In this document: positions 4,998-36,281 of the stretch, piece after piece | Numbering within the stretch: position 1 is the first letter of the stretch | Layout of the letters: each line of letters opens with the position of its first letter | Assembly: GCA_030153935.1 (NCBI GenBank) | Contig: JASKKX010000013.1 | Coordinates: 1-36,281, forward strand | From: Verrucomicrobiota bacterium | GTDB lineage: Bacteria; Verrucomicrobiota; Kiritimatiellia; Kiritimatiellales; Tichowtungiaceae | Direction of reading: 5' to 3' | Length of the DNA: 36,281 nucleotides | Notes under the pieces: model-generated | Databases searched by the model: none | Told to the model about the DNA's origin: nothing | What the model saw: only the letters and a program-made list of their open reading frames with translations | Made by a program: the position numbers and the translations under genes

Positions 4998-6006
4998 ACT
5001 GCAGATCCTGAAGATCAAGCACAGAGAACATCGAATCAGCCAGATATTCTGCTGTTTTCTTGTGGATGCCGAGGCCCATGTCGCCGAGTTTCCGCAGACC
5101 GTCGCGCATCATGCCGAATCCAAGCTGCGCGGCTGGAAGGGCGATGGGCAGGACCTCGAGATAAAGCCGGTCAGTAACGGTCAGATCGCGGGTTCCCAGG
5201 GTCTGGAAAAATTCCGGTTGATTTTTCCAAAGACTGGAAAGCAGATAGTTGTGGCGGCGTTCGATATGGTCGCGGGCGAGGTCGCGGATATCATCGAGCA
5301 CCTGACAGCCGATTCCGAACCGGAGCAGCGCCTTTTTAAGTTCTGCGGAGCGGTGGCGGTCCAGGTGCGGCTCTACGATCTCCGGAGCGAAAAATGCGAC
5401 GTTGAAGAGGAGGCCGGTTTTATAGCGGTGAATGACAGAGAGGACGGTTTCCGGGTCCGGGCGCTCAATAATGCCTTCCTCTTCGCTCGCTTCCTGAGCG
5501 GCGCTCGGCAGGAGAATTTGCAGAGAGCGCTCTGAAAGAGCCTGTGCCTGTTTTGCAGCCAGGGCACCGGTCTCGACTCCTTCGGCAAGAAGTTGCTGGA
5601 AGATGCGGTCGGCTGTCATGATGGAGACGACTTGTCGCATAACGCGCGAGGAACCGGGCATTTGTATCGGAATGACAACCTTATCTTCGTGATCGAGCAG
5701 ATTATCGGCGCTGGTAACCCAGATGCGGAAGAGATGAATCAATTTGCCGTAAAAGAGGCGATGTTGCGGCTCACAGTCGAGCAGGTGATACATGGACTGA
5801 AAGAGGGTGGAAAAAATATTTTTACGCAGGGTGTAAAACGATTCGGGAACAGAATCCATTGAAACTCTGTATTCAGAAGGTGTGTCGGGCGGGACGTGTA
5901 AAACTTCATCAGCTGTTTTGTAAATATATTTAATAGCAATACGTTGCTCATCGAACGCCGCCTTGAAGATGCGGTCTGTCTTCCAAATATCTGTCCATGT
6001 TTTCAT
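4990..6006 (-). CDS. class I isoprenoid-synthase-fold protein (polyprenyl synthetase-like)
   Basis: Two Asp-rich motifs: SADNLLDHEDK and QVLDDIRDLARDH; all-alpha length about 338 aa. Confidence 0.65.
   Translation of the reverse strand: MKTWTDIWKTDRIFKAAFDEQRIAIKYIYKTADEVLHVPPDTPSEYRVSMDSVPESFYTLRKNIFSTLFQSMYHLLDCEPQHRLFYGKLIHLFRIWVTSADNLLDHEDKVVIPIQMPGSSRVMRQVVSIMTADRIFQQLLAEGVETGALAAKQAQALSERSLQILLPSAAQEASEEEGIIERPDPETVLSVIHRYKTGLLFNVAFFAPEIVEPHLDRHRSAELKKALLRFGIGCQVLDDIRDLARDHIERRHNYLLSSLWKNQPEFFQTLGTRDLTVTDRLYLEVLPIALPAAQLGFGMMRDGLRKLGDMGLGIHKKTAEYLADSMFSVLDLQDLQYA
5193..5241 (-). repeat. palindrome pair (31-bp period) inside isoprenoid-synthase-like CDS
   Basis: Coding strand CTTTCCAGTCTTTGGAAAAATCAACCGGAATTTTTCCAGACCCTGGGAA. 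Confidence 0.8.
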
Positions 6007-6122
6007 TAATATCAAATCATATTAGTCATGTTTAGTCCTTCTAACAATCCAAACGTTCATTTTTAATTTTTTTGATCAGCTGTTTCTGTTCCCCATGTGC
6101 ATAACGGGGCTGCTTTTACATA

Positions 6123-6767
6123 TCACTGCGGCGGCAAAACCCCTTCGGAGACGAGCTGAGCATCCATTTCCGGAGTAAGCGGCATGGGCAGCGGCGGCCG
6201 TCCGCTGCGGATGGCATCCATCTGTACGTCTTCCAGATGCTTTTTAAGAGCGTCTCCGGTCAGTTTCGGTTCCGGCGGTTTTTCTTCTGCCTGCTGTTTG
6301 CGCCGTTCCTCGATTTTTCTCAGAAGTGCCCGCCGGCGTTCCGCGTAGGAATTCTGTTGGGAAGATGGCTGGCTCCTGGCCATTTGCTCTCCGTCTCCGG
6401 ACTCCAGCTTGAACAGTACAACTTCGTTCCCTTTACGCAGCAAAGCTTCTGAGGAATCCATATCCGCTTCGACCAACTCCAGGCCATCCTGCGGTTCACC
6501 GATACGAAGGATATAGCTTTTCTTGAGGTTACTATCGATAATACCGGCCCGTATAGAACCGTCCGAACCTTCCAGCAGCATGGAAAGACGCAGATTGCGG
6601 GCGAACGATTGGGTGGACGAAACCGTTTGCAGTGCATCGGCTTCGAGCGGTTCCTGTCCAAAAGGCTGTTTATCAATAATCGGCTGATAACGACTGAATC
6701 CTTCCTCCGCCGCACTGCTGAGCAGAGCGGAGAACAGCAGGATCAAGATGGGTCCCTCTCTCTTCAC
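6123..6767 (-). CDS. hypothetical secreted protein
   Basis: GTG start giving VKREGPILILLFSALLSSAAEEGFSRYQPI; signal-like N-terminus, polar low-complexity C-terminus. Confidence 0.5.
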   Translation of the reverse strand: MKREGPILILLFSALLSSAAEEGFSRYQPIIDKQPFGQEPLEADALQTVSSTQSFARNLRLSMLLEGSDGSIRAGIIDSNLKKSYILRIGEPQDGLELVEADMDSSEALLRKGNEVVLFKLESGDGEQMARSQPSSQQNSYAERRRALLRKIEERRKQQAEEKPPEPKLTGDALKKHLEDVQMDAIRSGRPPLPMPLTPEMDAQLVSEGVLPPQ

Positions 6768-6850
6768 TAGGACAGAGAGTATCTGTTCTTGTCTAAATTT
6801 CGTCAAGCGGTAGGCTGTTAGCAACACATATTAGAAGCAAAGGAATCTGC

Positions 6851-8512
6851 ATGCGACGTGGAATTGCGACTCTGCTGATTGTTTTAACGGCCTGCGCCGT
6901 TTCGGCGCAAATGCCGCACCGGGTGGCCGTGCTGGTGAACGAAAATTCGCAGGATTCAAAAAAGGCGGCGAATATTTTTGCCGTGCTGCACGGAGTGCCG
7001 GGCGTTAATCTGATCTATCTCGACCTGCCGGACTCCATGGTTGCCGGTCGTGCGGAATGTACACCGGAGGAATTCCGGACGCTCATTTATGAACCGGCAC
7101 AGAAAACAATCGAAGACCGCGGCCTGAACGACCAGATTCTGGCCTGGATCTATTCCGTCGACTTCCCGATCCGTATCGTTACCTCTTCCAATGATCGGCA
7201 GCAGATGTCGATTATGGGGCTCACGTTCACCCGCGGCAGGGTTCCCCCGCTGGAACAGATTGAAAAAGGACTTTTTTTGTCCCCCCTTTTCGCCGGGCCG
7301 GCAAAAGAGGGCGGGCCCAAAAATCCGCCGAGCTCTTTTGATGTTCTGAATGCAAGGCTCAAAGACAGGATGCCGCTGCCTTCCATGATGCTCGGCTATA
7401 TCGGAGAAAACGGGACAGATATGGGCACTGTACTGCGCTGCATTGAAGACGGCGTCCGCGCCCGTCGTCAAGGCGGCGGCAACCCGCGCGTGCTGCTGGT
7501 GAAGACCGACGACAAAGCCCGGTCCGAGCCGCGCGAATGGCAGTATGCCGATGTCAAAGCGGAACTGGCGCTGCGTAAAGGGACCGCAGTGATTGCCACC
7601 AACCAGCCTCCCGCGCAAACCGGTCTGATGGGGGTAATGACCGGTGCGGCCAACCTGAATCCATCCGGCTTCGGCACCTTTGCGCCGGGAGCGCTGGGCG
7701 AACATTTCACCAGCTGGTCTGCTGAATTCCAGAAGCCGCAGACCAAATGCACCGAGTGGCTGAAGGCCGGTGCGACTGTGACGGCGGGCATGGTGACCGA
7801 ACCATACAATGTCTGGACCAAATTCCCGCATGCACGCTTTTTTTCCCACTATGCCTCCGGTTGCACGGCAATGGAGAGTTTTTACCAATCCATTGCCAGT
7901 CCGGTGCAGATCCTGCTCCTCGGCGATCCGCTTTCACAGATCAGAAGACTTCCGGTTCAAATTAAAGCGGTTGGCCTGAACAAAGAAATTACCAGCGATC
8001 TGGATGCCGCCTTTGTGGCTCAGGCGAAATTTCCGATTCCTGTCAAAGTGTTCTACAGTGCTTTGCTCGACGGAAAACAGATCAAAGCGATGGAAGGAAA
8101 TAAACTGGTGGAGCTGCCGTTTGCGCAGATGGGCGATGGATATCATGAAATCCGTCTGATTGCGCAGGAGCTTTCCTCGGTGACACTCGGCGGGTTCAAA
8201 GATTTTCCGATCAGGATCAATAAAAAAGGACGTTCGCTGAAGATCACCGGCATAGCCGACGGCGCACCGCATCAGGTGGTTGTTACCGCTTTTCCCGGCG
8301 GCGAAGACCGACCGACAGAAATGGCTCTGCTTTGGAACGGGCGCGAGCTCGACCGTAAACCGTATACGGCGGATACGCAACTGGTCTTCGATGAACGGAC
8401 CGTCGGAGAGGGGCCGCACCGCCTGCAGGCGGTTGCCGTCTATGAAGACGGCATGGAAGTGCGCAGCGAACCGCAGTCTTTTGCTATTGCATTTAATCCT
8501 TCGCCTGAATAA
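6851..8512 (+). CDS. TIGR03790-family protein
   Basis: Signal peptide followed by MPHRVAVLVNENSQDSKKAANIFAVLHGVPGVNLIYLDLP; family recognised from memory of N-terminal pattern. Confidence 0.7.
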   Translation: MRRGIATLLIVLTACAVSAQMPHRVAVLVNENSQDSKKAANIFAVLHGVPGVNLIYLDLPDSMVAGRAECTPEEFRTLIYEPAQKTIEDRGLNDQILAWIYSVDFPIRIVTSSNDRQQMSIMGLTFTRGRVPPLEQIEKGLFLSPLFAGPAKEGGPKNPPSSFDVLNARLKDRMPLPSMMLGYIGENGTDMGTVLRCIEDGVRARRQGGGNPRVLLVKTDDKARSEPREWQYADVKAELALRKGTAVIATNQPPAQTGLMGVMTGAANLNPSGFGTFAPGALGEHFTSWSAEFQKPQTKCTEWLKAGATVTAGMVTEPYNVWTKFPHARFFSHYASGCTAMESFYQSIASPVQILLLGDPLSQIRRLPVQIKAVGLNKEITSDLDAAFVAQAKFPIPVKVFYSALLDGKQIKAMEGNKLVELPFAQMGDGYHEIRLIAQELSSVTLGGFKDFPIRINKKGRSLKITGIADGAPHQVVVTAFPGGEDRPTEMALLWNGRELDRKPYTADTQLVFDERTVGEGPHRLQAVAVYEDGMEVRSEPQSFAIAFNPSPE

Positions 8513-8526
8513 AGAACTCATGCTTC

Positions 8527-8952
8527 ATGAAAATCTGGACCTCCAACAGCCCTTCCAATACCTGGAAAATCGCCGCGGAGTTTTTCCAAACATTGGAAAA
8601 ACCGGCGGTGATCGCCTTGCACGGTAACCTGGGAGCGGGGAAAACCTGCTTCGCACAGGGGCTGGCACTGGCTGCAGGCGTTAAAGAACCGGTCTGCAGC
8701 CCCACCTATACGCTCATCAGCGAATACCGCGGAACCGTTGCATTCAACCATATTGATCTTTACCGCCTCGGCGGACCTGAAGAGGCGTTCGACCTCGGCC
8801 TCGACGAATATCTCGAAACCGACGGCATCACCGTCATCGAGTGGCCAGAGCGCGCGGCCGAGCTGCTGCCGCCGTTTACGGTTCATTTACGCATTAACCG
8901 CGGAGAAAACGACGGACAGCGCATCATCTCTATTGTGGAGAACCCCTTATGA
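8527..8952 (+). CDS. tsaE: tRNA threonylcarbamoyladenosine biosynthesis ATPase TsaE
   Basis: Walker A LHGNLGAGKTCFAQGLA; SPTYTLISEY; HIDLYRL; VIEWPERA. Confidence 0.93.
   Translation: MKIWTSNSPSNTWKIAAEFFQTLEKPAVIALHGNLGAGKTCFAQGLALAAGVKEPVCSPTYTLISEYRGTVAFNHIDLYRLGGPEEAFDLGLDEYLETDGITVIEWPERAAELLPPFTVHLRINRGENDGQRIISIVENPL
8551..8601 (+). repeat. palindrome pair (31-bp period) inside tsaE
   Basis: CCTTCCAATACCTGGAAAATCGCCGCGGAGTTTTTCCAAACATTGGAAAAA. Confidence 0.85.
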
Positions 8953-9590
8953 TCACCCTTGGTATTGAATGCTCCTCGCGGCAGGGCAGTGTGGCCCTGC
9001 TGAAAGACGGTTCTCTGCTGGCCGAAAAAGTCTGGATTGCCGACCGCGTGCGCCACAATGTGATTTTCAAAGCCCTGGAAGCCCTGCTGAGGGAGACGGA
9101 TGTATCGTATGACGATATATCCCTCTACGCGGTCGGACGAGGACCGGGATCCTTTTCCGGCATGCGGATGTCTTTTGCGATTGCCCAGGCGCTGGCCCTG
9201 CCGGATCGGACCGAGGTGCGGGCGGTAAGCAGCGGCGCGGCGCTGGCGTTGGCTGCCGCGCATGAAACCGGCGCGAAACAGATCGCCGTTGCCGGTGATG
9301 CCCGCCGCGGGCAGATTTGGATCGGTTTTTTCCAAACAGCGGACACGGACTTCGTTGAACTTTCCAAGGGCTGGAACCTTGTCCCCTACGAAGAGGTCGA
9401 ACTGCCTGAAGACATCCCGGTAGTCAGTCCGGAGGCTGAACGGCTGGAGAACATTTTTCCAGCCATTGGGAAAGCGCAGTTTCCGCTGGCGCGTGATGTC
9501 GCCGGGCTGGCGGTGCAGCAAAAAATTCCAGAGCCCCTTGAACCGCTCTATATGCACCCGCCGGTCTTCATTGAACCAAAATTCAGTTGA
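8949..9590 (+). CDS. tsaB: tRNA threonylcarbamoyladenosine biosynthesis protein TsaB
   Basis: LGIECSSRQGSVALL; VGRGPGSFSGMRMSFAIAQALA; overlaps tsaE by 4 nt. Confidence 0.92.
   Translation: MITLGIECSSRQGSVALLKDGSLLAEKVWIADRVRHNVIFKALEALLRETDVSYDDISLYAVGRGPGSFSGMRMSFAIAQALALPDRTEVRAVSSGAALALAAAHETGAKQIAVAGDARRGQIWIGFFQTADTDFVELSKGWNLVPYEEVELPEDIPVVSPEAERLENIFPAIGKAQFPLARDVAGLAVQQKIPEPLEPLYMHPPVFIEPKFS
9326..9376 (+). repeat. palindrome pair (32-bp period, first copy degenerate) inside tsaB
   Basis: TTTTTTCCAAACAGCGGAC then TTTCCAAGGGCTGGAA. Confidence 0.55.
9454..9474 (+). repeat. single palindrome (N8 variant) inside tsaB
   Basis: TTTTTCCAGCCATTGGGAAAG, read F-P-A-I-G-K. Confidence 0.65.
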
Positions 9591-9622
9591 ATTTTTGCGG
9601 CTTCTTCCGTAATTTTTCAAGG

Positions 9623-10879: not shown

Positions 10880-10890
10880 ACAAAATCCTC

Positions 10891-10919
10891 TTGACACTCT
10901 GTCGGCATCTCCCTATCAA
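10891..10919 (+). promoter_or_regulatory. sigma70-like promoter for aroB
   Basis: TTGACA (10891-10896), 17-bp spacer, TATCAA (10914-10919). Confidence 0.55.
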
Positions 10920-10929
10920 CCATGCATCT

Positions 10930-12622: not shown

Positions 12623-12635
12623 GGGCAAAATCATT
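12608..12635 (+). repeat. tandem direct repeat GGGCAAAATCATT x2
   Basis: 12608-12620 and 12623-12635 identical 13-mers just upstream of the GxxExxY gene. Confidence 0.8.
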
Positions 12636-12652
12636 TTTTTGGAAGGCTTGTT

Positions 12653-15031: not shown

Positions 15032-15045
15032 AAAAAGGAACTTAG

Positions 15046-17511
15046 ATGAAAAAACTGGTTATTGTAGAGTCTCCTGCGAAGGCAAAGACAATTAATAAGT
15101 ATCTCGGTGAGGATTATATCGTGAAAGCCTCGATGGGGCATGTGCGCGATCTGCCGCCGAAGAAACTGGGTGTGGATGTCGATAAAGGATTTGAGCCGGA
15201 ATATGTGAACACCAAAGGTCGCGCCAAGGTGATCGCCGAGCTGAAAGCCGCGGCAAAGAAATGCGATGAGGTGATTCTGGCACCCGACCCGGACCGGGAG
15301 GGAGAGGCGATTGCCTGGCATCTTTTTGAGCTGCTCAAAGGAATTATTCCCCCGGAAAAATTCAGTCGCGTCACCTATAATGAGATCACAAAAGCTGCGA
15401 TTCAGGAGGCGTTTTCGCATCCCGGTGAACTGGATAAAAACCGTGTCAACTCTCAGCAGGCGCGCCGGGTTCTTGACCGGCTGGTCGGATTCAAGGTGAG
15501 CCCGCTGCTTTGGAAGCAGATTAAAGGCGGAGTCAGCGCGGGACGCGTGCAGTCCGTGGCCTTGCGCCTTGTCTGTGAGCGTGAGCGCGAAATCCAGAAC
15601 TTTAATCCGGAAGAATACTGGGTGCTTGGTGCAAATGTCCGCAAGCTGATTGATCCGCGTGATCCTTTCGAGGTCAAGCTGGCGCAGATCAACGGTGAAA
15701 AAGCTGAAATCAAAAGCAGTGAACAGGCGGAAAAAATTCGTGCGGAACTGGAGCAGAGCACATTGCATGTCGCCCGGATCATTGAAAAAGAGATTCAGCG
15801 CAAGGCGCGAGCGCCGTTTATTACCAGTACATTGCAGCAGGCAGCCTCCAGTGTTTGCGGATTCACTCCGGCGCGCACGATGAGCATTGCGCAGGCGCTT
15901 TATGAAAACGGGCTGATCACCTATATGCGAACCGACTCGGTGAACATCGCTAAAAGTGCGCAGGAGGCCTGCCGAACATTTATCGGTGCCGAGTACGGCA
16001 ACGAGTATCTTCCGTCCAAAGCGAATGTTTACAAAAGCCGCGGCAACGCGCAGGAAGCGCATGAAGCGATCCGCCCGACGGATGTTGCACAGACTCCGCC
16101 GGACATTTCCGGTCTCAAGCCCGAAGAGCAGAGACTGTATAAACTGATCTGGGAACGGTTTGTTTCCAGCCAGATGGTGCCTGCGCGTATCGCCCGCCGC
16201 ACGGCTGAAATCGAAACGGATGGCAGCAATATCTATCTTTTCCGCGCGACCTCTTCGGAAATTGCGTTCCCCGGTTATATGCGCGCCAGTGGCATCGAAA
16301 AGGCTGCAGACAGGAAAAACGAAGATGAGGATGACGAAAACGGTGAAACCAGACTCCCGCCGCTGGCCGAAGGCGAAAAACTCGATTGTGTCGAATGGAC
16401 CGGCGAACAGAAATTCACCAAACCGCCGGCGCGCTTCAGTGAGCCGTCGCTTATCCGCGCACTGGAAGCAAACGGCGTCGGACGCCCGAGTACGTATGCG
16501 CAGACCTTGTCTGTGCTCGATAAGCGTGAATATGTAACCAAGGAAAAACGTTCGCTTGTTCCGACCGAGGCGGGATTGCGTGTGAACGACTTTCTGGTCG
16601 GGGCTCTCGACTCACTTTTCAACGTCAAGTTCACCGCCGAAATGGAAGCACAGCTCGATAAAGTCGAAGACGGTTCCGTCGAATGGACCGATATGATGAA
16701 TAAATTCTACAAACAGTTCCTCGAATGGCTCGAAGGCGCGCGCGATATGGCGGATCCTGAGAGCACGAAAGAACTGCTCACCGCTTTTGAGCAGGTCAGG
16801 GAATGGGCCGCTCCGGTTAAACGCGGTCGCCGCACGTATGATGACAAAGAAATCATTAAATCCGTTCGTGAAAAGTTTGACGAGGACGGTCAGATTACTC
16901 AGCGCCAGCATCAGATGCTTTTCCGGATGGCCTGTAAATATATTGAACAGCTTGATGCGGAAGAAGTGAAGAAACTGGGTCTTGAAAAACCGGAAGAACC
17001 GCGTACTGAAACGCATCGCAAACTGGAACTGCTTCGGGGTGTTGAATTTGATGCGCCCCGCAAAGTGGGGCGACGCACGTATGATGATGCCAAATTCTGT
17101 GCTTCGCTTCGTCAGCAGGTGCAAAACGGCCGCCGTCTCAGCGAACGGCAGGTTGACGCCCTTGACGCCCTGCTTCTGAAGTATGCTGAACAGATCGAGG
17201 ACTTTGAGCGCGTCAAAAAGAACTTTAACCTGACCAGGCCGGAAGTGTCCGACACAGGGGTTGCAGGATCACTGCTCGGCCTGCTCAAAAACATTAAAAC
17301 ATGGAATCCTCCGGTCAAACGCGGTAACCGTGAATTCAATGACCGGACGTTCTATGAATCGCTGGCCGGACAGTTCGAAAGCAAGGGGTCGCTTTCGGAG
17401 AAGCAGATCGCTGCACTCAAAAAGATCGTCGCCCGCTATGCGGATCAGATTCCCGACTATGATTTGATTCGCGAGCAGTACGGCCTTCCCGAACCGCGGA
17501 CGAAGAAGTAG
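15046..17511 (+). CDS. topA: DNA topoisomerase I with three C-terminal GRRTYDD-type repeats
   Basis: KLVIVESPAKAKTINKYLG, PDREGEAIAWHL, ITYMRTDS; C-terminus has three related repeats and no visible Cys4 zinc fingers. Confidence 0.96.
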   Translation: MKKLVIVESPAKAKTINKYLGEDYIVKASMGHVRDLPPKKLGVDVDKGFEPEYVNTKGRAKVIAELKAAAKKCDEVILAPDPDREGEAIAWHLFELLKGIIPPEKFSRVTYNEITKAAIQEAFSHPGELDKNRVNSQQARRVLDRLVGFKVSPLLWKQIKGGVSAGRVQSVALRLVCEREREIQNFNPEEYWVLGANVRKLIDPRDPFEVKLAQINGEKAEIKSSEQAEKIRAELEQSTLHVARIIEKEIQRKARAPFITSTLQQAASSVCGFTPARTMSIAQALYENGLITYMRTDSVNIAKSAQEACRTFIGAEYGNEYLPSKANVYKSRGNAQEAHEAIRPTDVAQTPPDISGLKPEEQRLYKLIWERFVSSQMVPARIARRTAEIETDGSNIYLFRATSSEIAFPGYMRASGIEKAADRKNEDEDDENGETRLPPLAEGEKLDCVEWTGEQKFTKPPARFSEPSLIRALEANGVGRPSTYAQTLSVLDKREYVTKEKRSLVPTEAGLRVNDFLVGALDSLFNVKFTAEMEAQLDKVEDGSVEWTDMMNKFYKQFLEWLEGARDMADPESTKELLTAFEQVREWAAPVKRGRRTYDDKEIIKSVREKFDEDGQITQRQHQMLFRMACKYIEQLDAEEVKKLGLEKPEEPRTETHRKLELLRGVEFDAPRKVGRRTYDDAKFCASLRQQVQNGRRLSERQVDALDALLLKYAEQIEDFERVKKNFNLTRPEVSDTGVAGSLLGLLKNIKTWNPPVKRGNREFNDRTFYESLAGQFESKGSLSEKQIAALKKIVARYADQIPDYDLIREQYGLPEPRTKK

Positions 17512-18507: not shown

Positions 18508-19785
18508 ATGATTTGGATTTTTTACAACCTGCTTTTTCCGATTGGGTTTCTGTTCCTGCTTCCCAAATTTATCCTGCGCATGGCACGCCGCGGCGGATAT
18601 CGGCGGCATTTTGAACAGCGGTTCGGGATTTATGGCAGCGGCACCGCTGCCCGGTTGGCGAAAGGCCGCCGCATCTGGATTCATGCAGTCAGCGTGGGCG
18701 AACTGTTTGTCGCACTCCGTTTCATCGAGGAATACCGCAAGGCACATCCGGAAGCTTTGTTTGTGTTGAGTACGAATACATCCACCGGCCACGCGCTTGC
18801 CGAACGACAGCTTGACCGCCGCGACGTACTGATCTATTTCCCCATTGATCTGCCGTTTGTCATGAAAAAGGCGTTTGATACCATTAATCCGCTCAAGCTT
18901 ATTCTGGTCGAATGCGAATTCTGGCCGAATTTTGTACGTCAGGCGCATCGTCGCGGCATTCCGGTGGCATTAATCAACGGGCGTATTTCCGATTCGTCGT
19001 ACAAGGGCTACATGCTGCTGCGTCCATTCACCCGCCGACTGCTTGAACTGATTGACCTGCTCTGCGTGCAGGGTCGGCAGGATGCGGAGCGCATCATCGC
19101 CATGGGTGCGCGGCCCGAAACAGTAAAAATACTCGGAACAGCCAAATACGATCTGTCGCCGGCCATTGTCGGAATGGATGTGACCGCGCGAGCAGTCCTC
19201 CGGAATCTTTCTGTTCCGGACAACGCGCTTATCCTGCTCGGCGGATCGACCTGGCTCGGTGAAGAAGAGGCCCTTTGCCGGATTTATAAAAACCTGCGCG
19301 AAACCTGTCCGGAACTTTTTCTTGTCCTGGTTCCGCGTCATGCGGAACGACGCGATGAGGTGAAAAAGGTGATCGAAAATCAGGAGCTTACGGTTGCGCT
19401 GCGCAGCCGGATGAATGGAGGACTCGATAAACCGGATGTGCTGATCGTGGACAGTACCGGGGAGATGATGAATTTTTATTCCATTGCAGATGTCGTTTTT
19501 GTCGGCAAGAGTCTTTGCGAACATGGAGGACAGAATCCGATTGAGCCGGCGCTCTTCAGCAAACCGATTGTCGTGGGTCCCAATATGGAAAACTTTCCGG
19601 CGGTCATGGACGACTTTCTTTCAGCGAACGCCATCAGGCAGGTTCAGAGTTTTCAGGCATTGGAGAAAACCATTGCCGAACTGCTGGCGGATTCCGCAGT
19701 TCGCGAGCAGCTCGGCCGTGCCGCCCGCCGTGTCATCGACAACCGTCGCGGCGTGATTGCCACAATGGTTCATGCCATCGGCTGA
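18508..19785 (+). CDS. waaA: 3-deoxy-D-manno-octulosonic acid transferase
   Basis: IWIHAVSVGE, STNTSTGHALAE, PIDLPFVMKKAFDTINPLKLILVECEFWPNF, GGQNPIEPALFSKPIVVGPNMENF. Confidence 0.95.
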   Translation: MIWIFYNLLFPIGFLFLLPKFILRMARRGGYRRHFEQRFGIYGSGTAARLAKGRRIWIHAVSVGELFVALRFIEEYRKAHPEALFVLSTNTSTGHALAERQLDRRDVLIYFPIDLPFVMKKAFDTINPLKLILVECEFWPNFVRQAHRRGIPVALINGRISDSSYKGYMLLRPFTRRLLELIDLLCVQGRQDAERIIAMGARPETVKILGTAKYDLSPAIVGMDVTARAVLRNLSVPDNALILLGGSTWLGEEEALCRIYKNLRETCPELFLVLVPRHAERRDEVKKVIENQELTVALRSRMNGGLDKPDVLIVDSTGEMMNFYSIADVVFVGKSLCEHGGQNPIEPALFSKPIVVGPNMENFPAVMDDFLSANAIRQVQSFQALEKTIAELLADSAVREQLGRAARRVIDNRRGVIATMVHAIG

Positions 19786-20976: not shown

Positions 20977-22047
20977 ATGAAAATTGTTTTAGCCTTTGAC
21001 TCATTTAAAGGGAATATTCCCGCTAGGGAAGTGTGCGAAATTGTCCGCGACGGGATTAAGTCCGTTCGTCCTGAGATCGAAACGGTGATTCTGCCGATGG
21101 CTGACGGCGGCGAGGGGACGGCCGAGGCGATGATGGCTGCACTTGGCGGGGAATGGATTCCGGTGACCGTCACCGGTCCCCTGCCGACGATGAAGGTGGA
21201 CGCCGGCTTTGCCTGGTTCTCTGCTGAAAAAACAGCTGTGGTTGAAATGGCGGCCGCCAGCGGCCTGCCGCTTTTAAAGCCGGACGAGTACAACCCGATG
21301 GTGGCCACGACGTACGGAACCGGCGAGCTGATTAAAGCTGCAATCGACAAAGGGGCAGAAAGAATTCTGCTGACGGTTGGCGGCAGTGCAACGGTTGACG
21401 GGGGCGTCGGTGCAGCCGAGGCGCTTGGATGGAAGTTCCCGGAATCCGGGGAGATCGTTCCTCCGGAAAACCTGCAGTTGCCTGAAGTCGATGTACTGTG
21501 CGATGTAACCAATCCGCTTTGCGGCCCGAATGGTGCGGCGCATGTATATGGCCCGCAGAAGGGTGCAACGCCGGAAATGGTGGAGCAGCTCGATTCCAGA
21601 CTTCGGAAACTTTCGGAGAAAATTATCCGAAGTCTGGGAAAAGATGTACGCGATCTGCCGGGCGCGGGCGCGGCGGGCGGACTGGCCGCCGGAGCTGTGG
21701 CGTTTATGAACGGGAAACTGGTGAGTGGCGTCGACACAGTGATGAGTACGATCGGACTGCCCGCGGCCTTGCGGGGAGCTGCATGGGTGCTGACCGGCGA
21801 GGGAAAGTTTGATGCACAATCTGTGCAAGGCAAAGTTGTCGACGGGGTGGCGCGGCTGGCGGCACAGGCCGGCGTAAAAACCGGCGTGATTGCCGGGTGT
21901 ATTCTGCTGAGCGAGGCGGAGTGGCGCGCGGCGGGAATTTCATTTGCGGCGACGCTTCAGCCGGAAGGGATGAGTGTGGAAGAATCAATCCGTCGCAGCC
22001 GGGAACTCCTTTTTGCGGCGGCGGCCGCTTTTGCCCGCGATTTGTAA
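20977..22047 (+). CDS. glxK: glycerate kinase (GlxK/GarK type)
   Basis: MKIVLAFDSFKGNIPAREVCEIV, PMADGGEGTAEAM, GVGAAEALGWKF, GAGAAGGLAAG, VLTGEGKFDAQSVQGKV. Confidence 0.93.
   Translation: MKIVLAFDSFKGNIPAREVCEIVRDGIKSVRPEIETVILPMADGGEGTAEAMMAALGGEWIPVTVTGPLPTMKVDAGFAWFSAEKTAVVEMAAASGLPLLKPDEYNPMVATTYGTGELIKAAIDKGAERILLTVGGSATVDGGVGAAEALGWKFPESGEIVPPENLQLPEVDVLCDVTNPLCGPNGAAHVYGPQKGATPEMVEQLDSRLRKLSEKIIRSLGKDVRDLPGAGAAGGLAAGAVAFMNGKLVSGVDTVMSTIGLPAALRGAAWVLTGEGKFDAQSVQGKVVDGVARLAAQAGVKTGVIAGCILLSEAEWRAAGISFAATLQPEGMSVEESIRRSRELLFAAAAAFARDL
21592..21642 (+). repeat. palindrome pair (31-bp period) inside glxK
   Basis: GATTCCAGACTTCGGAAACTTTCGGAGAAAATTATCCGAAGTCTGGGAAAA. Confidence 0.65.
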
Positions 22048-24434: not shown

Positions 24435-24504
24435 ATTTTTCAAGCATCGGCAACTTTTTACTACAGGGATCAATAGAATTTCAGTTGCTGGAAGTTCGTT
24501 GATG

Positions 24505-24520
24505 GAACCGGTACCGGTTC
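24505..24520. repeat. perfect 16-bp palindrome GAACCGGTACCGGTTC
   Basis: Direct reading in the 24435-24722 intergenic region. Confidence 0.8.
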
Positions 24521-24722
24521 TATTTGCAGATTCGCCGGCTTTTCAAGAATTTGTATTTGTGAGGCGGGAATGTTTTCAACTTCAGCGGCTTCCTTGGAAA
24601 ACATCCTTATCTATCCCGATGAGAGCCCCCAAGGCTGCCCGAGTAATTCGCAGGTTAGTTTTCTCTTTTCTTAATATTTTTTGAAACCGGTTTTTTCTCC
24701 CCATGCCTCTACGCAGTAAAAA

Positions 24723-27626: not shown

Positions 27627-27628
27627 GA

Positions 27629-27657
27629 TTGATGAATTTAGCAGAGGGGAGTAGGGT
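27629..27657 (+). promoter_or_regulatory. sigma70-like promoter for kdsD
   Basis: TTGATG (27629-27634), 17-bp spacer, TAGGGT (27652-27657), directly abutting the palindrome pair. Confidence 0.45.
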
Positions 27658-27707
27658 TTTCCAATCATTGGAAAAACTATCTCATATTTTTCCAGAGGTT
27701 GAAAAAA
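27657..27707 (+). repeat. palindrome pair (31-bp period) in the kdsD 5' leader
   Basis: TTTTCCAATCATTGGAAAAACTATCTCATATTTTTCCAGAGGTTGAAAAAA. Confidence 0.85.
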
Positions 27708-27718
27708 CGGGAGAACAG

Positions 27719-28690: not shown

Positions 28691-28691
28691 T

Positions 28692-29327
28692 ATGGGCCGA
28701 CTGGTTATAGAAGGGCTTCAGACGCGGAATGGCGGGCCTTTTTCATTTTCAGTGGAGCGGGGCGAATGCGTAACGCTTTACGGTCCGTCAGGCTGTGGCA
28801 AAACGCTGCTGCTGCGGGCGATTGCCGATCTCGATCCTGCCGAAGGAACTGTTCTGCTGGATGGCGAAAGCCGCGCCGGCATGACCGCGCCGCAGTGGCG
28901 CAAAAAAGTCGGCTGGCTTGCCGCTGAAAGTGCATGGTGGTTTGATCGCGTGGGCGAACATTTCCCGATGGTCGGGAAAGTGAACGGTGATTTTCCCGAT
29001 GTCTGGAAAAAAAGGATCCAGTGCCTGGAACAACTGGGATTTGGAGAAGAGGTTCTGGGCTGGCGGATTGAGCGGATGTCGACGGGTGAAAAACAGCGGC
29101 TGGCACTGTTCCGCTTGCTGCTGAATGAACCGCAGGTTCTGTTGCTCGATGAGCCGACGGCGGCTCTGGACCCCACGAATGTATTTGTGATGGAAAAGGT
29201 AATCGGCGAGTTTCGCCGTTCAACCGGCGCGGCGGTGGTGTGGGTCAGCCATGATCCGGAGCAGGTTCAGCGCGTTGCCGATCATTCTTTGAAGTTTAAC
29301 GGAAGCAGACTGGAGGCGGCGGAATGA
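28692..29327 (+). CDS. fetA: ABC transporter ATP-binding protein, FetA-like
   Basis: LYGPSGCGKTLLLRAIA, RMSTGEKQRLALFRLL, LLLDEPTAALD; partner of FetB-like gene. Confidence 0.82.
   Translation: MGRLVIEGLQTRNGGPFSFSVERGECVTLYGPSGCGKTLLLRAIADLDPAEGTVLLDGESRAGMTAPQWRKKVGWLAAESAWWFDRVGEHFPMVGKVNGDFPDVWKKRIQCLEQLGFGEEVLGWRIERMSTGEKQRLALFRLLLNEPQVLLLDEPTAALDPTNVFVMEKVIGEFRRSTGAAVVWVSHDPEQVQRVADHSLKFNGSRLEAAE
28961..29011 (+). repeat. palindrome pair (31-bp period) inside fetA
   Basis: TTTCCCGATGGTCGGGAAAGTGAACGGTGATTTTCCCGATGTCTGGAAAAA. Confidence 0.8.
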
Positions 29328-30121
29328 ACGGGATTGTTCTTCTTTCTCCGGTTGATTTAAGCCTGGCTGCATTGCTGGTGATTGCGCTGGCGCTGGTGAG
29401 CCGCCGTCTGGAGCTGAAGATCGGCGGGCGTCTGTTGATTTCCGCGCTGCGGATGGTGATCCAGCTTTCACTGATCGGTATTGTGCTGAAGGCGTTGTTT
29501 TCAAGCGGCGCACCGGGCTGGGTGGCGCTGATGGCTTTGGTGATGCTGCTGACCGCCGGACGGGAGGTCCGTGCGCGGCAGAAATACCGGCTGCGCGGGT
29601 TGTGGGGTTTTAATATCGGTCTGGGCGCGATGTTTGTGTCGTCGTTTGCTGTGTCAGTTCTCGCGCTGACGGCAGTGGTTCGCGCCGATCCATGGTATGC
29701 CCCGCGTTATGCAATTCCGCTGCTCGGAATGCTGCTGGGGAATACGATGAACGGGGTGGCGATTGCCAGCAACAGTCTGACTCAGGCCGTGCATGCACAG
29801 CGGACGGTGATCGAGACACGGCTGGCTCTGGGACAGACGAAGTGCGAGGCGATGGCTGATCTTCGCCGGGAAAGCATCCGCACCGGCCTGATTCCGATTA
29901 TCAACTCAATGGCGGCGGCAGGTGTCGTGAGTCTGCCGGGCATGATGACCGGCCAGATTCTGGCGGGAAATCCGCCGGGTGATGCGGTGAAGTATCAGAT
30001 TCTGATTATGTTTCTGATTGCCGCCGGAACGGGCTTCGGCACGCTGGCCGCAGTCTGGGTGACGGCATGCCGCCTGTTTGATGAGCGCGACCGACTGCGG
30101 CTGGATCGGCTGGAACGCTGA
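29324..30121 (+). CDS. fetB: FetB/YbbM-family (UPF0014) ABC transporter permease
   Basis: GMLLGNTMNGVAIASNSL; LPGMMTGQILAGNPPGDAVKYQI. Confidence 0.88.
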   Translation: MNGIVLLSPVDLSLAALLVIALALVSRRLELKIGGRLLISALRMVIQLSLIGIVLKALFSSGAPGWVALMALVMLLTAGREVRARQKYRLRGLWGFNIGLGAMFVSSFAVSVLALTAVVRADPWYAPRYAIPLLGMLLGNTMNGVAIASNSLTQAVHAQRTVIETRLALGQTKCEAMADLRRESIRTGLIPIINSMAAAGVVSLPGMMTGQILAGNPPGDAVKYQILIMFLIAAGTGFGTLAAVWVTACRLFDERDRLRLDRLER

Positions 30122-30204
30122 ATCGTCCAGGCATTGGAGCCGGGCAGCCAACGGTCCGATATTAAGGTCCCCGTTATTAAAGTTCCTCGAGTACAATGCC
30201 CTGA

Positions 30205-30216
30205 TTTGCATGCAAA
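30205..30216. promoter_or_regulatory. perfect 12-bp palindrome TTTGCATGCAAA upstream of the hybrid kinase
   Basis: Direct reading in the 30122-30343 leader. Confidence 0.5.
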
Positions 30217-30343
30217 CACTGTTAACGGCTGACTGAGTTGTGGCGGAAGCTGTCTTTGCAGCTTGTTCTAATAGAGCCGGAAGCCTCAAAGTCTGTAAAC
30301 TCCGGCTCGACGACGGGTGACTTTTGCCTGATAATCCCGACCA

Positions 30344-33300
30344 ATGTACTTGATGAATTCCAGACGTGCAGTACTTGTCATGCTCTTCTGTATTGCGGTG
30401 ATCGCAAAGACCCAGGCAATCGAATTCAATGAAAAAGAGCGCTCCTGGCTTGAGAAACACGGGGAAACGATCACATTTGCTACATCTCAAAACTATCCGC
30501 CTGTTGAATTTTTCAATCAACGGACCGGGTCACAGGGGATCGCGGTGGAGCTGGTCCGCTGGATGGCCGCGGAAGGAGGGTTTCATGCTTCGTTTTCCCA
30601 CATGTCTCTCAAGAATTCCCGTAAAACGGTATTGAACGGACAGAGCGATGTACTCACCTGTCTGTTTTACAGTAAAGAACGCGCCGCAGAGTTTGCTTTC
30701 ACGCCGTCCTTTTTTAAGGTGCCGGCGTCAATCTTTGTTTCTGCCGACCGCTCAGATATCCGAAGGGTTGAGGATCTGAATGGAAAGATCATTGCGATGC
30801 AGGAAGGGGATTATGCCGAAGAGTTTATCCGGGGAAAGGGGATTCCGTGCCGGTTTTTTCTGACATCCGGTTTTAAACAGGCGATAGAAGCGGTTGCAGA
30901 TGGCCGGGCGGATGCAATTATCGGTGATGAGGCGGTTGTTTATTATTATCTCTACGAAGAAAATCTTACCGAAAAAGTTAAAAAGGTTGGCCGGTCTCTT
31001 TATGAGGGGCAGTGCTGTATGGCCGTGGCGAAAAATAATCCGATCCTGCTGTCGATTCTGACCAAAAGTATTGAAGCGGCAAGGCAGTCCGGTGTCATCG
31101 GCCGGATTGAACACAATTGGACGGGACTCGAATACACATCGCTGGGGTTTCAGGCCGTGCGCTACATCCGTTATGTGGTGATCGGGATGGGCATCCTGCT
31201 GGCGGCCGTTCTGCTGTTTTGGATATGGGATCTGCGTCTGTCCCGGCGGGTTCTGAAGAAAAACGAAGACCTGAAAAAAAGCGAAGAACGTTTACGGGTG
31301 ATTTTCCAGAATTCGCCTGATGCCCTTGTTATCGAGGATGAAGACGGCACCATACTCGATGCCAATCCAAAGGCCTGTGAGTTCCATCAGCTGAGTCGGA
31401 AAGAACTGATCGGAAAAAACGCCATCGACCTGATCCCTGCCTCTCTTCAGGGGCGTGTAAAACACGACTTCAGAAAATGGTTTACCGGCGAACTCAAATG
31501 TTATGAGAGAGAAGCTCTGTCAGGCGACGGAAAGGAAATCCCGGTGGAAATCATCGGCGCCCCGCTGTACTTTGAAGGGAAGAGTGCCGTTCTGCTGACG
31601 ATGCGCGACATAACCGCCCGCAGGCGAACTGAACAGGCCCTGAAAGAAAGTGAAATGCGGTACCGCGGTCTGATTGAGGCGCAGAGTAACTTTATTATCC
31701 GGATTGACGCAAAAGGCTGCTTTACTTTTGTCAATGAAGCCTTTTGCCGGTTCGTAGGGCGTTCCAGAGGCGAGCTGATCGGTGCGCCCTGTCAAAGCTA
31801 CATTTATCACGACGACATCTCCGTATCCAGTCGGGCAATCAAGGACTTAATTGAACGAAGAGAGCGGGTCGTAACGATTGAATTCCGTATGTGGGTTCGT
31901 ACATCCATTGCATGGGTCTGCTGGGAAAACATTGCCGTATTTGACGGAGCCGGGCAGGTTGTTGAAATTCAGAGTGTCGGACAGGATATCACAGAACGTC
32001 GCCGTATTTCCGAGGCTTTACAGGAAAGCGAAAAGCGCATGCGGTTCCTGTTTGAGGAAATTCCGCACATTGCCGTACAGGGCTGCAATGCGATGCGTGA
32101 GGTCATCTTCTGGAATCGCGCCAGCGAACGGCTTTATAAATATTCCCGGGAAGACGCATTAGGGAAAAAACTGGAAGATCTTGTTCTGACGGCCGACAGG
32201 CGGGAAAACATGATCCAGGCGTTTGAAAACTGGGTTGAAATCGGAATCCCGATCCCCTCCGGAAAAATGATGAAACGTACAGCCGATGGGGAGTCTGTTG
32301 CCGTTTATTCCAGCCGTCTCGCCACGCGCAATCAGCACGGAGAGTGGGAACTGTATGTGATTGATGTGGATCTGTCCGAGTTGAAACGCGCCAGTGACGA
32401 ACTGGTTAAAGCAAAAGAATATGCAGAAAAGGCGAGCCGTGCCAAAAGTGAGTTTCTCGCCAATATGAGTCATGAAATCCGCACGCCGATGAACGGTGTC
32501 ATGGGAATGACCACCTTGCTGCTGGAAACGCAACTGACGGATGAGCAGCGTGATGATGTCCAAACCATCATGGAATCAACACAGGAACTGATGCGCATCA
32601 TTGATGAACTCCTTGATATTTCCCGGATTGAGGCCGGGGAAGTCCGCCTGCAGTCTGAGCCGTTCTGCCCGCGTGAAACAGCGGAAAAGGTCGTGCTTCT
32701 GTTTGCGGACCGCGCCGGACGGAAGGGGGTGGATCTTTCGGTTGCCGCGCATGACAGTGTTCCCGACAGAATGATGGGCGACGCCGGCCGCATCCGTCAG
32801 ATTCTAATCAACCTCATCAGTAATGCGCTTAAATTCACTCATGACGGACATATACAAATCCGGATGCAGACTGAAGCTGAACAAGACGGCTGGAATCTGC
32901 TCGTCGAGGTTCAGGATACCGGCATTGGAATGAGCGTCGATCTGCAAAACCGTATTTTCGAAAAATTCACCCAAGGCGATACCTCCTCTACGCGCGAATA
33001 CGGAGGAGCGGGATTGGGTCTTGCGATCACCCGTCAGCTGGTTCAGCTGATGAACGGTGAAATTTCGGTGGAGAGTGAGATTGGGAGAGGGACGACTTTC
33101 CGGTTCAATCTTAAACTGGGCCGGATTGAAAAAGATACGCAGTCCGCTCTTTCTTCACTGTCCCGTTCCGAATCAAGCACTGTTGCCTTTAAGGCGGAAA
33201 TCCTTCTGGTGGAAGATAATCCGGTCAACCAGAAAGTCGCCACCGCCATGTTGAAGAAAATGGGCTGCGTTGTAACCGTTGCACCGAACGGTGCCCGTGC

Positions 33301-33577
33301 TCTTGAGCAGATTGCCCAGCGCTGTTTCGATCTTATTTTTATGGATTGTCAGATGCCGATCATGGATGGTTTTGAAACAACCCGCGCGATCCGTCAGATG
33401 GTCGGAAAAATCCGGGACATACCGATTATTGCCATGACGGCCCATGCCCTCAAAGGAGACCGGCAGCGTTGTCTGGATGCGGGGATGAACGATTATCTCT
33501 CCAAACCCGTTCACCGGAATTCGCTGGTCACGATTCTTCAAAAGTATTGCGGGGCCGATGCGTCCACTGGGAAGTAA
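30344..33577 (+). CDS. hybrid sensor histidine kinase: periplasmic SBP_bac_3-like sensor, TM, PAS domains, HisKA, HATPase, REC
   Basis: EVQDTGIGMSVDLQNRIFEKFTQGD; FLANMSHEIRTPMNGVMGMT; ILLVEDNPVNQKVATAML...FMDCQMPIMDGFETT; N-terminal ITFATSQNYPPVEFFNQRTGSQGIAVEL. Confidence 0.95.
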   Translation: MYLMNSRRAVLVMLFCIAVIAKTQAIEFNEKERSWLEKHGETITFATSQNYPPVEFFNQRTGSQGIAVELVRWMAAEGGFHASFSHMSLKNSRKTVLNGQSDVLTCLFYSKERAAEFAFTPSFFKVPASIFVSADRSDIRRVEDLNGKIIAMQEGDYAEEFIRGKGIPCRFFLTSGFKQAIEAVADGRADAIIGDEAVVYYYLYEENLTEKVKKVGRSLYEGQCCMAVAKNNPILLSILTKSIEAARQSGVIGRIEHNWTGLEYTSLGFQAVRYIRYVVIGMGILLAAVLLFWIWDLRLSRRVLKKNEDLKKSEERLRVIFQNSPDALVIEDEDGTILDANPKACEFHQLSRKELIGKNAIDLIPASLQGRVKHDFRKWFTGELKCYEREALSGDGKEIPVEIIGAPLYFEGKSAVLLTMRDITARRRTEQALKESEMRYRGLIEAQSNFIIRIDAKGCFTFVNEAFCRFVGRSRGELIGAPCQSYIYHDDISVSSRAIKDLIERRERVVTIEFRMWVRTSIAWVCWENIAVFDGAGQVVEIQSVGQDITERRRISEALQESEKRMRFLFEEIPHIAVQGCNAMREVIFWNRASERLYKYSREDALGKKLEDLVLTADRRENMIQAFENWVEIGIPIPSGKMMKRTADGESVAVYSSRLATRNQHGEWELYVIDVDLSELKRASDELVKAKEYAEKASRAKSEFLANMSHEIRTPMNGVMGMTTLLLETQLTDEQRDDVQTIMESTQELMRIIDELLDISRIEAGEVRLQSEPFCPRETAEKVVLLFADRAGRKGVDLSVAAHDSVPDRMMGDAGRIRQILINLISNALKFTHDGHIQIRMQTEAEQDGWNLLVEVQDTGIGMSVDLQNRIFEKFTQGDTSSTREYGGAGLGLAITRQLVQLMNGEISVESEIGRGTTFRFNLKLGRIEKDTQSALSSLSRSESSTVAFKAEILLVEDNPVNQKVATAMLKKMGCVVTVAPNGARALEQIAQRCFDLIFMDCQMPIMDGFETTRAIRQMVGKIRDIPIIAMTAHALKGDRQRCLDAGMNDYLSKPVHRNSLVTILQKYCGADASTGK

Positions 33578-33612
33578 GGCCGTCAGCGTGGGAAGCTGTG
33601 TCTGCGAAAAAG

Positions 33613-34239
33613 TCAGACGAAAGTATTGAAAATGCGGTCTCCCGCATCGCCGAGGCCGGGCACAATGTAGGCTGAATCATTGAGACCTGCATCGATTTTA
33701 CAGACGTAGATCTTTACGTTCGGATGGGCTTCACGTACAGAGGCGATTCCTTCGGGGGCAGCGATGATGGAGATCATCCGGATTTCTTTTGCGCCCCAGT
33801 CTTTGACCCTCTGGATGCCGGCAACAGCTGAGCCGCCGGTCGCCAGCATCGGGTCGAGCACAAAGACAATGTCGGGCGGGTGAGAAGAGAATTTCTGGTA
33901 ATACCCGACCGGCTTCAACGTGTGTTCATCGCGGTAGAAACCGAGATGCCACACTTCGGCGGTCGGGAGCAGATCGAGAACCGCATCGGTCATGCCGAGC
34001 CCGGCGCGCAGAATCGGAACGAGTCCAATACGTACATCCAGCACAGTCCCCTCCATTTCGGTCAGCGGGGTTTCAATGGTTTTTGATCTGAGCGGCAGAT
34101 CGCGCGTGGCTTCGGCGGCCAGCAGGACCGCCAGCCGTCGAACCTGGGAGCGGAAAATATGAGGCGTGCTTTCTTTATTTCTCAGATGGGTAAGGTGGTG
34201 GTGAACGAGTGGATGATCGATTTCAAATACTGTTTGCAC
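33613..34239 (-). CDS. upp: uracil phosphoribosyltransferase
   Basis: HPLVHHHLTHLRNKEST; VFVLDPMLATGGSAVAGIQRVKDWGAKEIRMISIIAAPEG. Confidence 0.97.
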   Translation of the reverse strand: MQTVFEIDHPLVHHHLTHLRNKESTPHIFRSQVRRLAVLLAAEATRDLPLRSKTIETPLTEMEGTVLDVRIGLVPILRAGLGMTDAVLDLLPTAEVWHLGFYRDEHTLKPVGYYQKFSSHPPDIVFVLDPMLATGGSAVAGIQRVKDWGAKEIRMISIIAAPEGIASVREAHPNVKIYVCKIDAGLNDSAYIVPGLGDAGDRIFNTFV

Positions 34240-34247
34240 AGGGGCTC

Positions 34248-35819
34248 CTATTTTGCATATTCAACTGCGCGGGTTTCGCGGATGACCGTCACCTTGATCT
34301 GTCCCGGATACTTCACCTCGTCCTGAATCCGGTTGGCAATTTCACGGGCGAGAATCAGTGCTCGGTTGTCGTCGACTTTGGATCCTTTAACCATGACGCG
34401 CAGCTCGCGGCCGGCCTGAATGGCATAGCATTTATCAACACCCTTGAAGGACGCGGCTGTTTTTTCGAGTTTTTCGAGACGTTGGAAATAAAGATCCGTG
34501 GTATCACTGCGGGCGCCGGGCCGGGCCGCAGTCATTGTGTCGGCCGCCGAGGCCAGCACGGCATACACGCTGCTCTTTTCGACATCATCGTGGTGCGCAG
34601 CGACCGCATTGTAGATCAGAGGTGCCTCGCCGTATTTGCGCAGCAGGTTCGCGCCGATCACGGCGTGCGAGCCTTCCACTTCATGGTCGACGGCTTTACC
34701 GAGATCATGGAAGAGGCCCACCCGTTTGGCGGTATCAACATCCAGGTCCAGATCAGCGGCCATCATGGCCATCAGCGACGCCATTTCAATGGAATGATGG
34801 AGTACGTTCTGCTTATAACTGGTTCGGTATTTCAGCCGGCCCAGAATTTCGACCAGTTCAGGAGCGATGCCGGAAATCCCGAGTTTGTAGAGCGCTTCTT
34901 CCCCCGCCTGGCGAATGAGCTCGTCGATTTGAGTCCGGGTTTTCCTCAGCGTTTCTTCAATGCTTGCCGGATGAATGCGCCCGTCTTCGATCAGTCGTTC
35001 CAGTGCGACACGGGCCACCTCGCGGCGGACAGGGTTGAAACTGGAAAGCAGGACCACGCCGGGCGTTTCATCGATAATCAGATTGACACCGGAATCCATC
35101 TCGAATGAGCGGATGTTGCGTCCTTCTTTGCCAATCAGCCGGCCTTTCATGTCTTCGGACGGCAGGGCGACCTGAGTAACCGTTATGTTTTCAACATACT
35201 CCGCCGCATAGCGCTCAATGGCTGCACAAATAATATTCCGGGCTTCGTCCCGGGCTTTTCCGAGAGCGGCTTTCTGTTCGCGGCGGATCAGAAGACTGAG
35301 TTCTCCTTCCAGTTCCTTTTCCACGCGTTCCATAATCATTTTCCGGGCGTCGTCTTGTGAAAGGCTGGCGGTTTCCTGGATGCGGCGATTTCCTTCTTCA
35401 ATACAGTCTTTGAGTTCCTTTTTCTGTGCGTTGAGTTCATCCTGCAGATTCTCTGCTTTATTGAGTTTTTCAGTCAGCACACGGTCTTTGGCTTCCAGCA
35501 GCTCCAGTTTTCGCGAAATATCATTCTCGCGGGCGACCACACGGTCTTCAAGAGCGATAATGCTTTGTCGTTTCTTTTCCAGACTCTGTTCTGCTTTTTC
35601 ACGGGCTTTAAGGACTTCTTCGCGGGCGGATATATCCGCTTCGTGTCTGATCGTCTCCGCCTGTTTTTTTGCTTCTTCCAGAATGATCGATCCGCGGTGG
35701 CTGGCCGCCACGGCATTGGTGCGGGTCAGATAGGCATGGAAGAAAAAACCGAGAACAACGAATCCGATATTGATCACGACGTCCTGTACGCCGCCCCACC
35801 AGATTCCGATATTTTCCAT
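34248..35819 (-). CDS. rny: ribonuclease Y
   Basis: N-terminal TM + coiled coil, KH domain VALPSEDMKGRLIGKEGRNIRSFE, HD domain VGLFHDLGKAVDHEVEGSHAVIG. Confidence 0.97.
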   Translation of the reverse strand: MENIGIWWGGVQDVVINIGFVVLGFFFHAYLTRTNAVAASHRGSIILEEAKKQAETIRHEADISAREEVLKAREKAEQSLEKKRQSIIALEDRVVARENDISRKLELLEAKDRVLTEKLNKAENLQDELNAQKKELKDCIEEGNRRIQETASLSQDDARKMIMERVEKELEGELSLLIRREQKAALGKARDEARNIICAAIERYAAEYVENITVTQVALPSEDMKGRLIGKEGRNIRSFEMDSGVNLIIDETPGVVLLSSFNPVRREVARVALERLIEDGRIHPASIEETLRKTRTQIDELIRQAGEEALYKLGISGIAPELVEILGRLKYRTSYKQNVLHHSIEMASLMAMMAADLDLDVDTAKRVGLFHDLGKAVDHEVEGSHAVIGANLLRKYGEAPLIYNAVAAHHDDVEKSSVYAVLASAADTMTAARPGARSDTTDLYFQRLEKLEKTAASFKGVDKCYAIQAGRELRVMVKGSKVDDNRALILAREIANRIQDEVKYPGQIKVTVIRETRAVEYAK

Positions 35820-35885
35820 TCAGTTACCTTATATTTTAGAAGTTGTTTCGATCATCTTAAGTAGAAATCCGGCCGTTTGGAATAT

Positions 35886-36281
35886 TTAATGTTCGTTGGA
35901 AACTTTAAAAACCCGAATGTCTGTTACCACCGCATCCATTCTGCAGTCATGCGGTTCCGCGGGAATCGTTTCCAGGCATTGGAAATCGAAACAGATTCCG
36001 GCCCGTTTCGCGCTGTACTGCGGAATAAGCCGGTCGTAAAACCCGCCGCCGCGCCCGATCCGGCATCCTGCGCAATCAAAGGCGATTCCCGGCACAATGA
36101 TCAGATCCAGTTCATCTTCGGCAGCAAAAACAGAGGGTACCGGTTCATAAATTCCGAATCGTCCTTTTTGAAGTTTTTCAGTCATTTGCGCCATCCGGTA
36201 GCCGCCGGATATTTCGTTGAATACCGGAAGATAGAATATTTTTTCTGAACAGTGGAAAAGCGGGGTAATATCCACTTCGCC
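35886..36281 (-). CDS. 5-formyltetrahydrofolate cyclo-ligase (N-terminus beyond right edge)
   Basis: DLIIVPGIAFDCAGCRIGRGGGFYDRLI; EPHDCRMDAVVTD. Confidence 0.9.
   Translation of the reverse strand, partial: GEVDITPLFHCSEKIFYLPVFNEISGGYRMAQMTEKLQKGRFGIYEPVPSVFAAEDELDLIIVPGIAFDCAGCRIGRGGGFYDRLIPQYSAKRAGICFDFQCLETIPAEPHDCRMDAVVTDIRVFKVSNEH
35969..35985 (-). repeat. single palindrome in 5-FCL CDS
   Basis: TTTCCAGGCATTGGAAA; coding strand reads F-Q-C-L-E. Confidence 0.7.

Follow-up and report, generated by a model that had tools for sequence, protein, structure and literature searches.

A helically phased family of palindromic DNA sites in the class Kiritimatiellia

The window analyzed here, a stretch of 36,281 nucleotides from contig JASKKX010000013.1 of a Tichowtungiaceae genome (assembly GCA_030153935.1; class Kiritimatiellia, phylum Verrucomicrobiota), carries a dispersed palindrome in genes such as tsaE, aroB and xer and in the gap between divergent AddB-like and kdsD genes. 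Its consensus, TTTTTCCA-R-N-S-N-Y-TGGAAAAA, spans 21 base pairs (bp), with two arms around a core fixed at five bases and a dyad passing through a G/C base pair. The sites in the window are listed below with their scores in a symmetric weight matrix, whose training data came from the genome outside the window.

5191-5242: pair, 31 bp apart (5191-5211, 5222-5242), in an isoprenoid-synthase-like gene; 21.6 and 25.7 bits
8550-8601: pair, 31 bp apart (8550-8570, 8581-8601; the second a perfect 16/16 consensus), in tsaE (TsaE by Pfam)
9327-9379: weaker pair, 32 bp apart (9327-9347, 9359-9379), in a tsaB-like gene; 14.5 and 14.0 bits
9454-9474: site 95 bp (nine turns) from 9359, in the tsaB-like gene; 24.1 bits
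11092-11112: site in aroB (DHQ synthase by Pfam); 18.0 bits
11563-11583: site in aroB; 17.1 bits
17718-17738: site in a tyrosine recombinase (xer) gene (Phage_integrase by Pfam); 21.9 bits
19648-19668: site in the gene at 18508-19785; 18.0 bits
21591-21642: pair, 31 bp apart (21591-21611, weak; 21622-21642), in a glycerate kinase gene; 11.8 and 17.3 bits
24826-24846: site in an AddB-like nuclease gene; 15.6 bits
25486-25506: site in the AddB-like nuclease gene; 16.6 bits
26424-26444: perfect 16/16 consensus in the AddB-like gene; the aligned codon keeps the site (up to 4 mismatches) in the orthologues of two relatives
27656-27707: pair, 31 bp apart (27656-27676, 27687-27707), between the divergent AddB-like and kdsD genes; 30.8 and 27.6 bits
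28960-29011: pair, 31 bp apart (28960-28980, weak; 28991-29011), in an ABC-type ATPase gene; 11.6 and 24.7 bits
34470-34490: site in the gene at 34248-35819; 21.4 bits
35967-35987: site in a 5-FCL-like gene; 19.1 bits
36240-36260: site in the 5-FCL-like gene; 15.6 bits

The pattern TTCC-N7-GGAA occurs 14 times in the window where 1.1 occurrences are expected, a count reached in 0 of 100 shuffles. The longer consensus is found 11 times with up to three mismatches (0.46 expected), and the weight matrix locates 21 sites scoring 14 bits or more, compared with 0.3 in shuffles. All 13 TTCC-N7-GGAA sites listed in a preliminary description of this DNA are present, and a further one, at 29715, had been overlooked. 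Copies 1497, 22079 and 32045, suspected there of being background, are indeed background, as are 29715 and 6570 (6-8 mismatches), and what had been taken for variants with an eight-base spacer at 5193, 9457 and 28993 are ordinary copies with an unchanged spacer, altered by a T-to-C change in the T-run (or by the corresponding A-to-G change in the opposite arm). Most sites of the window are paired, with six pairs at 31-32 bp (5191/5222, 8550/8581, 9327/9359, 21591/21622, 27656/27687 and 28960/28991); such arrays, the enrichment between genes and the patchy distribution across the class had all escaped the first reading.

The motif extends far beyond the window, throughout the genome and across the class. 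The exact pattern TTTTCCA-N5-TGGAAAA is present 47 times in the whole source genome (G000; 2.04 Mb in 100 contigs) and 202 times in the whole genome of its complete congener G009, and the reversed pattern 0 times in either. Spacer length is rigid: within 663 kb of the source genome we count 112 occurrences of TTCCA-N5-TGGAA versus 0-4 at the other spacers between 0 and 11, and in 571 kb of a second congener, G010, 280 versus 0-3. Two outcomes had been named beforehand as refuting, a frequency equal to that of a codon-preserving shuffle and restriction of the motif to the window; neither is observed. When synonymous codons are shuffled within genes, such that proteins and codon usage are preserved, coding sites with up to two mismatches exceed the shuffle in all three genomes sampled (59 versus 11.5, 69 versus 13.5 and 24 versus 3.9, for the sampled parts).

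Neighboring sites keep to whole helical turns. Their center-to-center distances cluster at 21-22, 31 (by far the commonest), 42, 52-53, 63, 73, 83-84 and 94-95 bp; a period of 10.45 bp fits best (vector length R = 0.83; 134 spacings of 12-200 bp). Period and strength are unchanged when the 31-bp mode is left out (63 spacings of 36-140 bp). Partners at 30-32 bp from strong sites number 42 in the source genome, 71 in G010, 14 in G009 and 55 in four genomes of other families, versus 0-0.2 at out-of-phase distances in the same genomes. The emptiness of these out-of-phase bins needs no statistics.

At locus L148 (about 9350-9450) four sites follow each other and the last spacers are near-identical (ACTCGCCAARACT), which suggests that arrays may lengthen when a 31-bp unit is duplicated in tandem and its copies then diverge. 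Dispersed palindromes with occasional arrays of this kind are also what a proliferating mobile element of the Rickettsia palindromic element, repetitive extragenic palindrome or miniature inverted-repeat transposable element type would leave behind, and the preliminary description had named a proliferating palindromic element among its possibilities. The copies do not bear this out: they share neither flanks nor interior. The flank profile is flat beyond the motif except for the 31-bp neighbors, interiors are diverse, and sites are retained at orthologous codons. Since flanks are unconserved and interiors diverse, the copies have not spread as one element, and we give a mobile origin next to no credence. 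Genome G026, which otherwise has almost no sites, contains a distinct tandem array in which TTTTTCCATTGTGTGGAAAAA recurs exactly every 31 bp (C99, 69-182; C250, 71-236); the interior of the unit does not show the R...Y pattern, and the array may represent another kind of repeat or the result of local amplification.

A palindrome enriched in the convergent gaps of some genomes could alternatively form an RNA or cruciform hairpin of the terminator type. The symmetric R and Y positions show no covariation, however: in the source genome A-C (22) and G-T (25) combinations outnumber G-C (7), and A-C and G-T are as frequent as A-T, so base pairing is not selected. The stem is followed at its 3′ side by an A-run rather than a U-run, helical phasing does not fit a hairpin, and an Rfam search of the window returned no match. 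A hairpin function thus appears extremely improbable; the site is not an RNA hairpin, just as it is not a mobile repeat.

Comparison of species within the genus points to the arms of the site as the part under selection. In upstream regions of reciprocal-best orthologues, 58 pairs share a site compared with 24 expected, and in 33 of the 58 the distance to the start codon is equal (within 6 bp), the arms being kept and the interiors changed. Such position-conserved sites precede lrp, purH, an exonuclease/phosphatase-family gene, kdsD/addB-like and rpsP/dinB; the window pair at 27656-27707 has position-matched upstream counterparts in G010 and G013. Within genes, the aligned codon retains the site in 134 of 177 ordered orthologue comparisons, a tally in which each comparison counts both ways and a gene may contribute several pairs. 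At codons specifying an identical amino acid, 588 of 716 third positions in the arms are identical (82%), versus 374 (52%) expected from the same codons elsewhere (z = 17.6), and the five interior bases are only marginally conserved (z = 3.1). The direction is clear all the same: it is the DNA of the arms that is under selection. A peptide motif, in-frame FFQxLEK, was considered and rejected, as just 59 of 108 intragenic sites lie in that frame (59:24:25) and the arms are preserved while the intervening amino acids change.

All 13 sampled congeners carry the motif, with 2-105 perfect copies each. When the strict pattern TTTCCARNSNYTGGAAA is counted in 238 genomes of the class, the highest total is 1,313 copies, many genomes have none, and a reversed control gives 0-1 everywhere; in about 190 genomes from other classes of the phylum we find 0-2 strict copies. 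Sister genera differ sharply, with 455 and 411 copies in one genus of family f26 and 0-1 in another, and 1,135 in one genus of family f13 compared with 0-38 in others. Hundreds of copies in and between genes, varying in number by species and patchily distributed, would also suit a DNA-uptake or Chi-like recombination signal maintained by biased uptake or exchange. Signals of both types are normally asymmetric. A palindrome is not expected of them, nor is strict phasing of neighbors up to ∼100 bp, which this explanation leaves unaccounted for, and we regard it as very unlikely. We found no paper describing the motif in the open-access literature and, as far as that literature shows, the motif family and its array architecture are undescribed. 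Taken together, our analyses define a real, conserved and class-specific family of helically phased palindromic sites.

Where the sites lie depends on the genome. The preliminary description placed them mostly inside genes, which holds for the window; genome-wide they are over-represented in intergenic DNA, where 52 of the 160 sites of the source genome fall in 13.5% of its sequence. The corresponding figure is 127 of 236 in G010, and in the GC-rich genome G044 39 of 40 sites are intergenic and arranged in arrays (gene calls are from a simple custom caller, with start codons approximate). Convergent gaps are the densest in G010 (3.4 per kb versus 1.3-1.4 in the other gaps) and in G044 (5.6 versus 2.8-2.9), and the placement of the sites does not look like that of a promoter-only set. 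The genes with conserved sites are housekeeping genes unrelated in function; an attempt to infer a core regulon from low-copy genomes was abandoned, since the flanking genes there are unrelated too. G009, a single contig of 3,882,676 bases (98% complete, ∼52% GC in the sampled stretches), shows no clustering at origin or terminus: its first 100 of 202 sites fit a uniform distribution over 1.77 Mb (Kolmogorov-Smirnov p = 0.11), and sampled stretches on either side of the GC-skew switches carry sites. At least 120 stretches of viral contigs contain a site, one each among the matches listed. In the window, the predicted proteins encoded beside tsaE at 6851-8512 and 6123-6827 (553 and 234 amino acids) have no Pfam match.

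Several known systems resemble this one in part, and dispersed sites for a nucleoid-associated or global DNA-binding protein are an already known kind of thing. Bacillus AbrB has bipartite TGGNA/TNCCA sites, hundreds of them in and between genes, and TTCCA-N5-TGGAA fits this half-site pattern; no SpoVT/AbrB domain is found, however, in G000, G009 or G010. Noc/ParB, SlmA and MatP are dimers that organize chromosomes by reading dispersed palindromes, but these number in the tens and form no 31-bp arrays, in contrast to the hundreds of arrayed sites seen here. HIP1 and the DNA-uptake sequences are over-represented short motifs maintained in coding DNA in a lineage-specific manner, as our motif is. 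They differ from its two conserved arms around a variable interior and from its phasing, for which, to our knowledge, neither is noted. The consensus is also, as far as we know, unrelated to the sites of Lrp/AsnC proteins. In architecture these come closest: Lrp-type regulators occupy sites that share one helical face, at intervals of two or three turns, and wrap the DNA, and archaeal arrays such as those of Ss-LrpB combine palindromic dimer sites, this spacing and cooperative wrapping (PMC2995911). The 31-bp mode and 10.45-bp period of our sites correspond to just such a spacing on one face. The arrays described here differ in comprising hundreds of sites, some of them intragenic, in genomes whose sole Lrp homologue has an unconserved recognition helix.

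Almost all genomes of the order encode one Lrp homologue (PF01037), whether or not they carry the motif, and in most congeners a site lies ∼46 bp before lrp. As a binder it is disfavored: in the genus its recognition helix is its least conserved part (mean pairwise identity 0.46, versus 0.92 for the RAM, or ligand-binding, domain), and it does not track the motif: G016 and G021, with 4 and 0 strict sites, encode it as well, and its versions in G014 (314 sites) and G023 (83 sites) are almost identical. Since the recognition helix is unconserved and the protein equally present where the motif is absent, Lrp is probably a target of the motif protein and not the binder. The combination of a near-invariant ligand-binding domain with a hypervariable recognition helix may reflect a loss of sequence-specific DNA binding. 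At loci L022 (near 16250-16720, minus strand), L069 (16894-17373) and L086-L097, the single-copy Lrp/AsnC gene lies beside an aminotransferase gene.

Other candidates were considered as well. SpoVT/AbrB proteins, looked for on account of the TGGNA half-sites, gave 0 matches to PF04014 in G000, in G009 with its 202 sites and in G010. HTH_8 (PF02954) occurs in 48 of 48 genomes tested, mostly in long regulators, and does not discriminate carriers from non-carriers; no short Fis-like protein was seen in the sampled DNA. Short HTH_8 proteins resembling Fis (open frames of 122-135 amino acids) are found in several genomes of the sister family (G020:C240, G019:C140, G034:C42, G018:C127 and G014:C7:91746). 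An additional ParB/Noc paralogue was rejected, ParB being single-copy as a rule in carriers and non-carriers alike, as was a small XRE protein common to G009 and G010, which has no good upstream site in G009.

From the site, its geometry, phasing, conservation and taxonomic range, all of which are direct observations, we infer homodimer binding, side-by-side contact between dimers and an architectural role. The 21-bp palindrome would be the operator for a single homodimer of a protein that binds double-stranded DNA sequence-specifically, with each subunit reading the CCA/TGG triplet and the flanking outer T/A run. Neighboring dimers would line up along the same helical face and touch one another, with three turns (31 bp) as the ideal interval, and such contacts would cause pairs and arrays to wrap or loop the DNA. 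Given hundreds of conserved sites across the chromosome, the protein would most likely act as a nucleoid-associated or global architectural regulator. We consider this explanation as a whole likely. The preliminary description had already suggested the binding site of a dispersed chromosome-organizing protein, and the fixed geometry, phasing, conservation at synonymous sites and lack of base-pair covariation support that proposal.

Four points weigh against this explanation. The binder was not found among the candidates searched (SpoVT/AbrB, Lrp, HTH_8, ParB and small XRE proteins) in a search that read about one-third of the source genome, and it may therefore lie in the remaining DNA. Spacings within arrays and orthologue pairs are non-independent, so that the p-values are too small and merely indicative. 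The favored type of intergenic region varies, being convergent in G010 and G044 and divergent or tandem in the source genome and G009, and an architectural role is thus not the sole reading. Finally, many intergenic sites of the source genome lie 20-80 bp before start codons, where their number peaks, as they would for a global transcription regulator of the ordinary kind controlling a large regulon, for which intragenic and convergent sites would be reservoirs or side effects. The position-conserved sites upstream of lrp, purH and the other genes named above suit such a regulator, and 31-bp pairs are frequent among cooperative regulators. It does not readily explain why convergent gaps are the densest places in G010 and G044 or why intragenic sites are under synonymous selection, and the neighboring genes have no function in common. 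We consider the ordinary regulator unlikely: an architectural or global role is likelier than a classical regulon because hundreds of conserved sites are spread across genes and all kinds of gaps.

If the palindromes are indeed operators of an architectural protein, they may, more tentatively, belong to a chromatin-like system particular to this class, in which phased arrays would position a protein that wraps or loops DNA chromosome-wide and synonymous selection would keep the sites in place; we put this forward as a possibility somewhat short of an even chance. It is rare for a bacterial DNA-binding protein to leave, inside coding sequence, a conserved and helically phased mark across the whole genome. 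This mark is visible without experiment, and it appears and disappears between sister families. At least one carrier is apparently cultured (probably Tichowtungia aerotolerans), which makes the question testable and opens a direct test, in a little-studied phylum, of the extent to which bacterial chromosomes are shaped by sequence-specific proteins.

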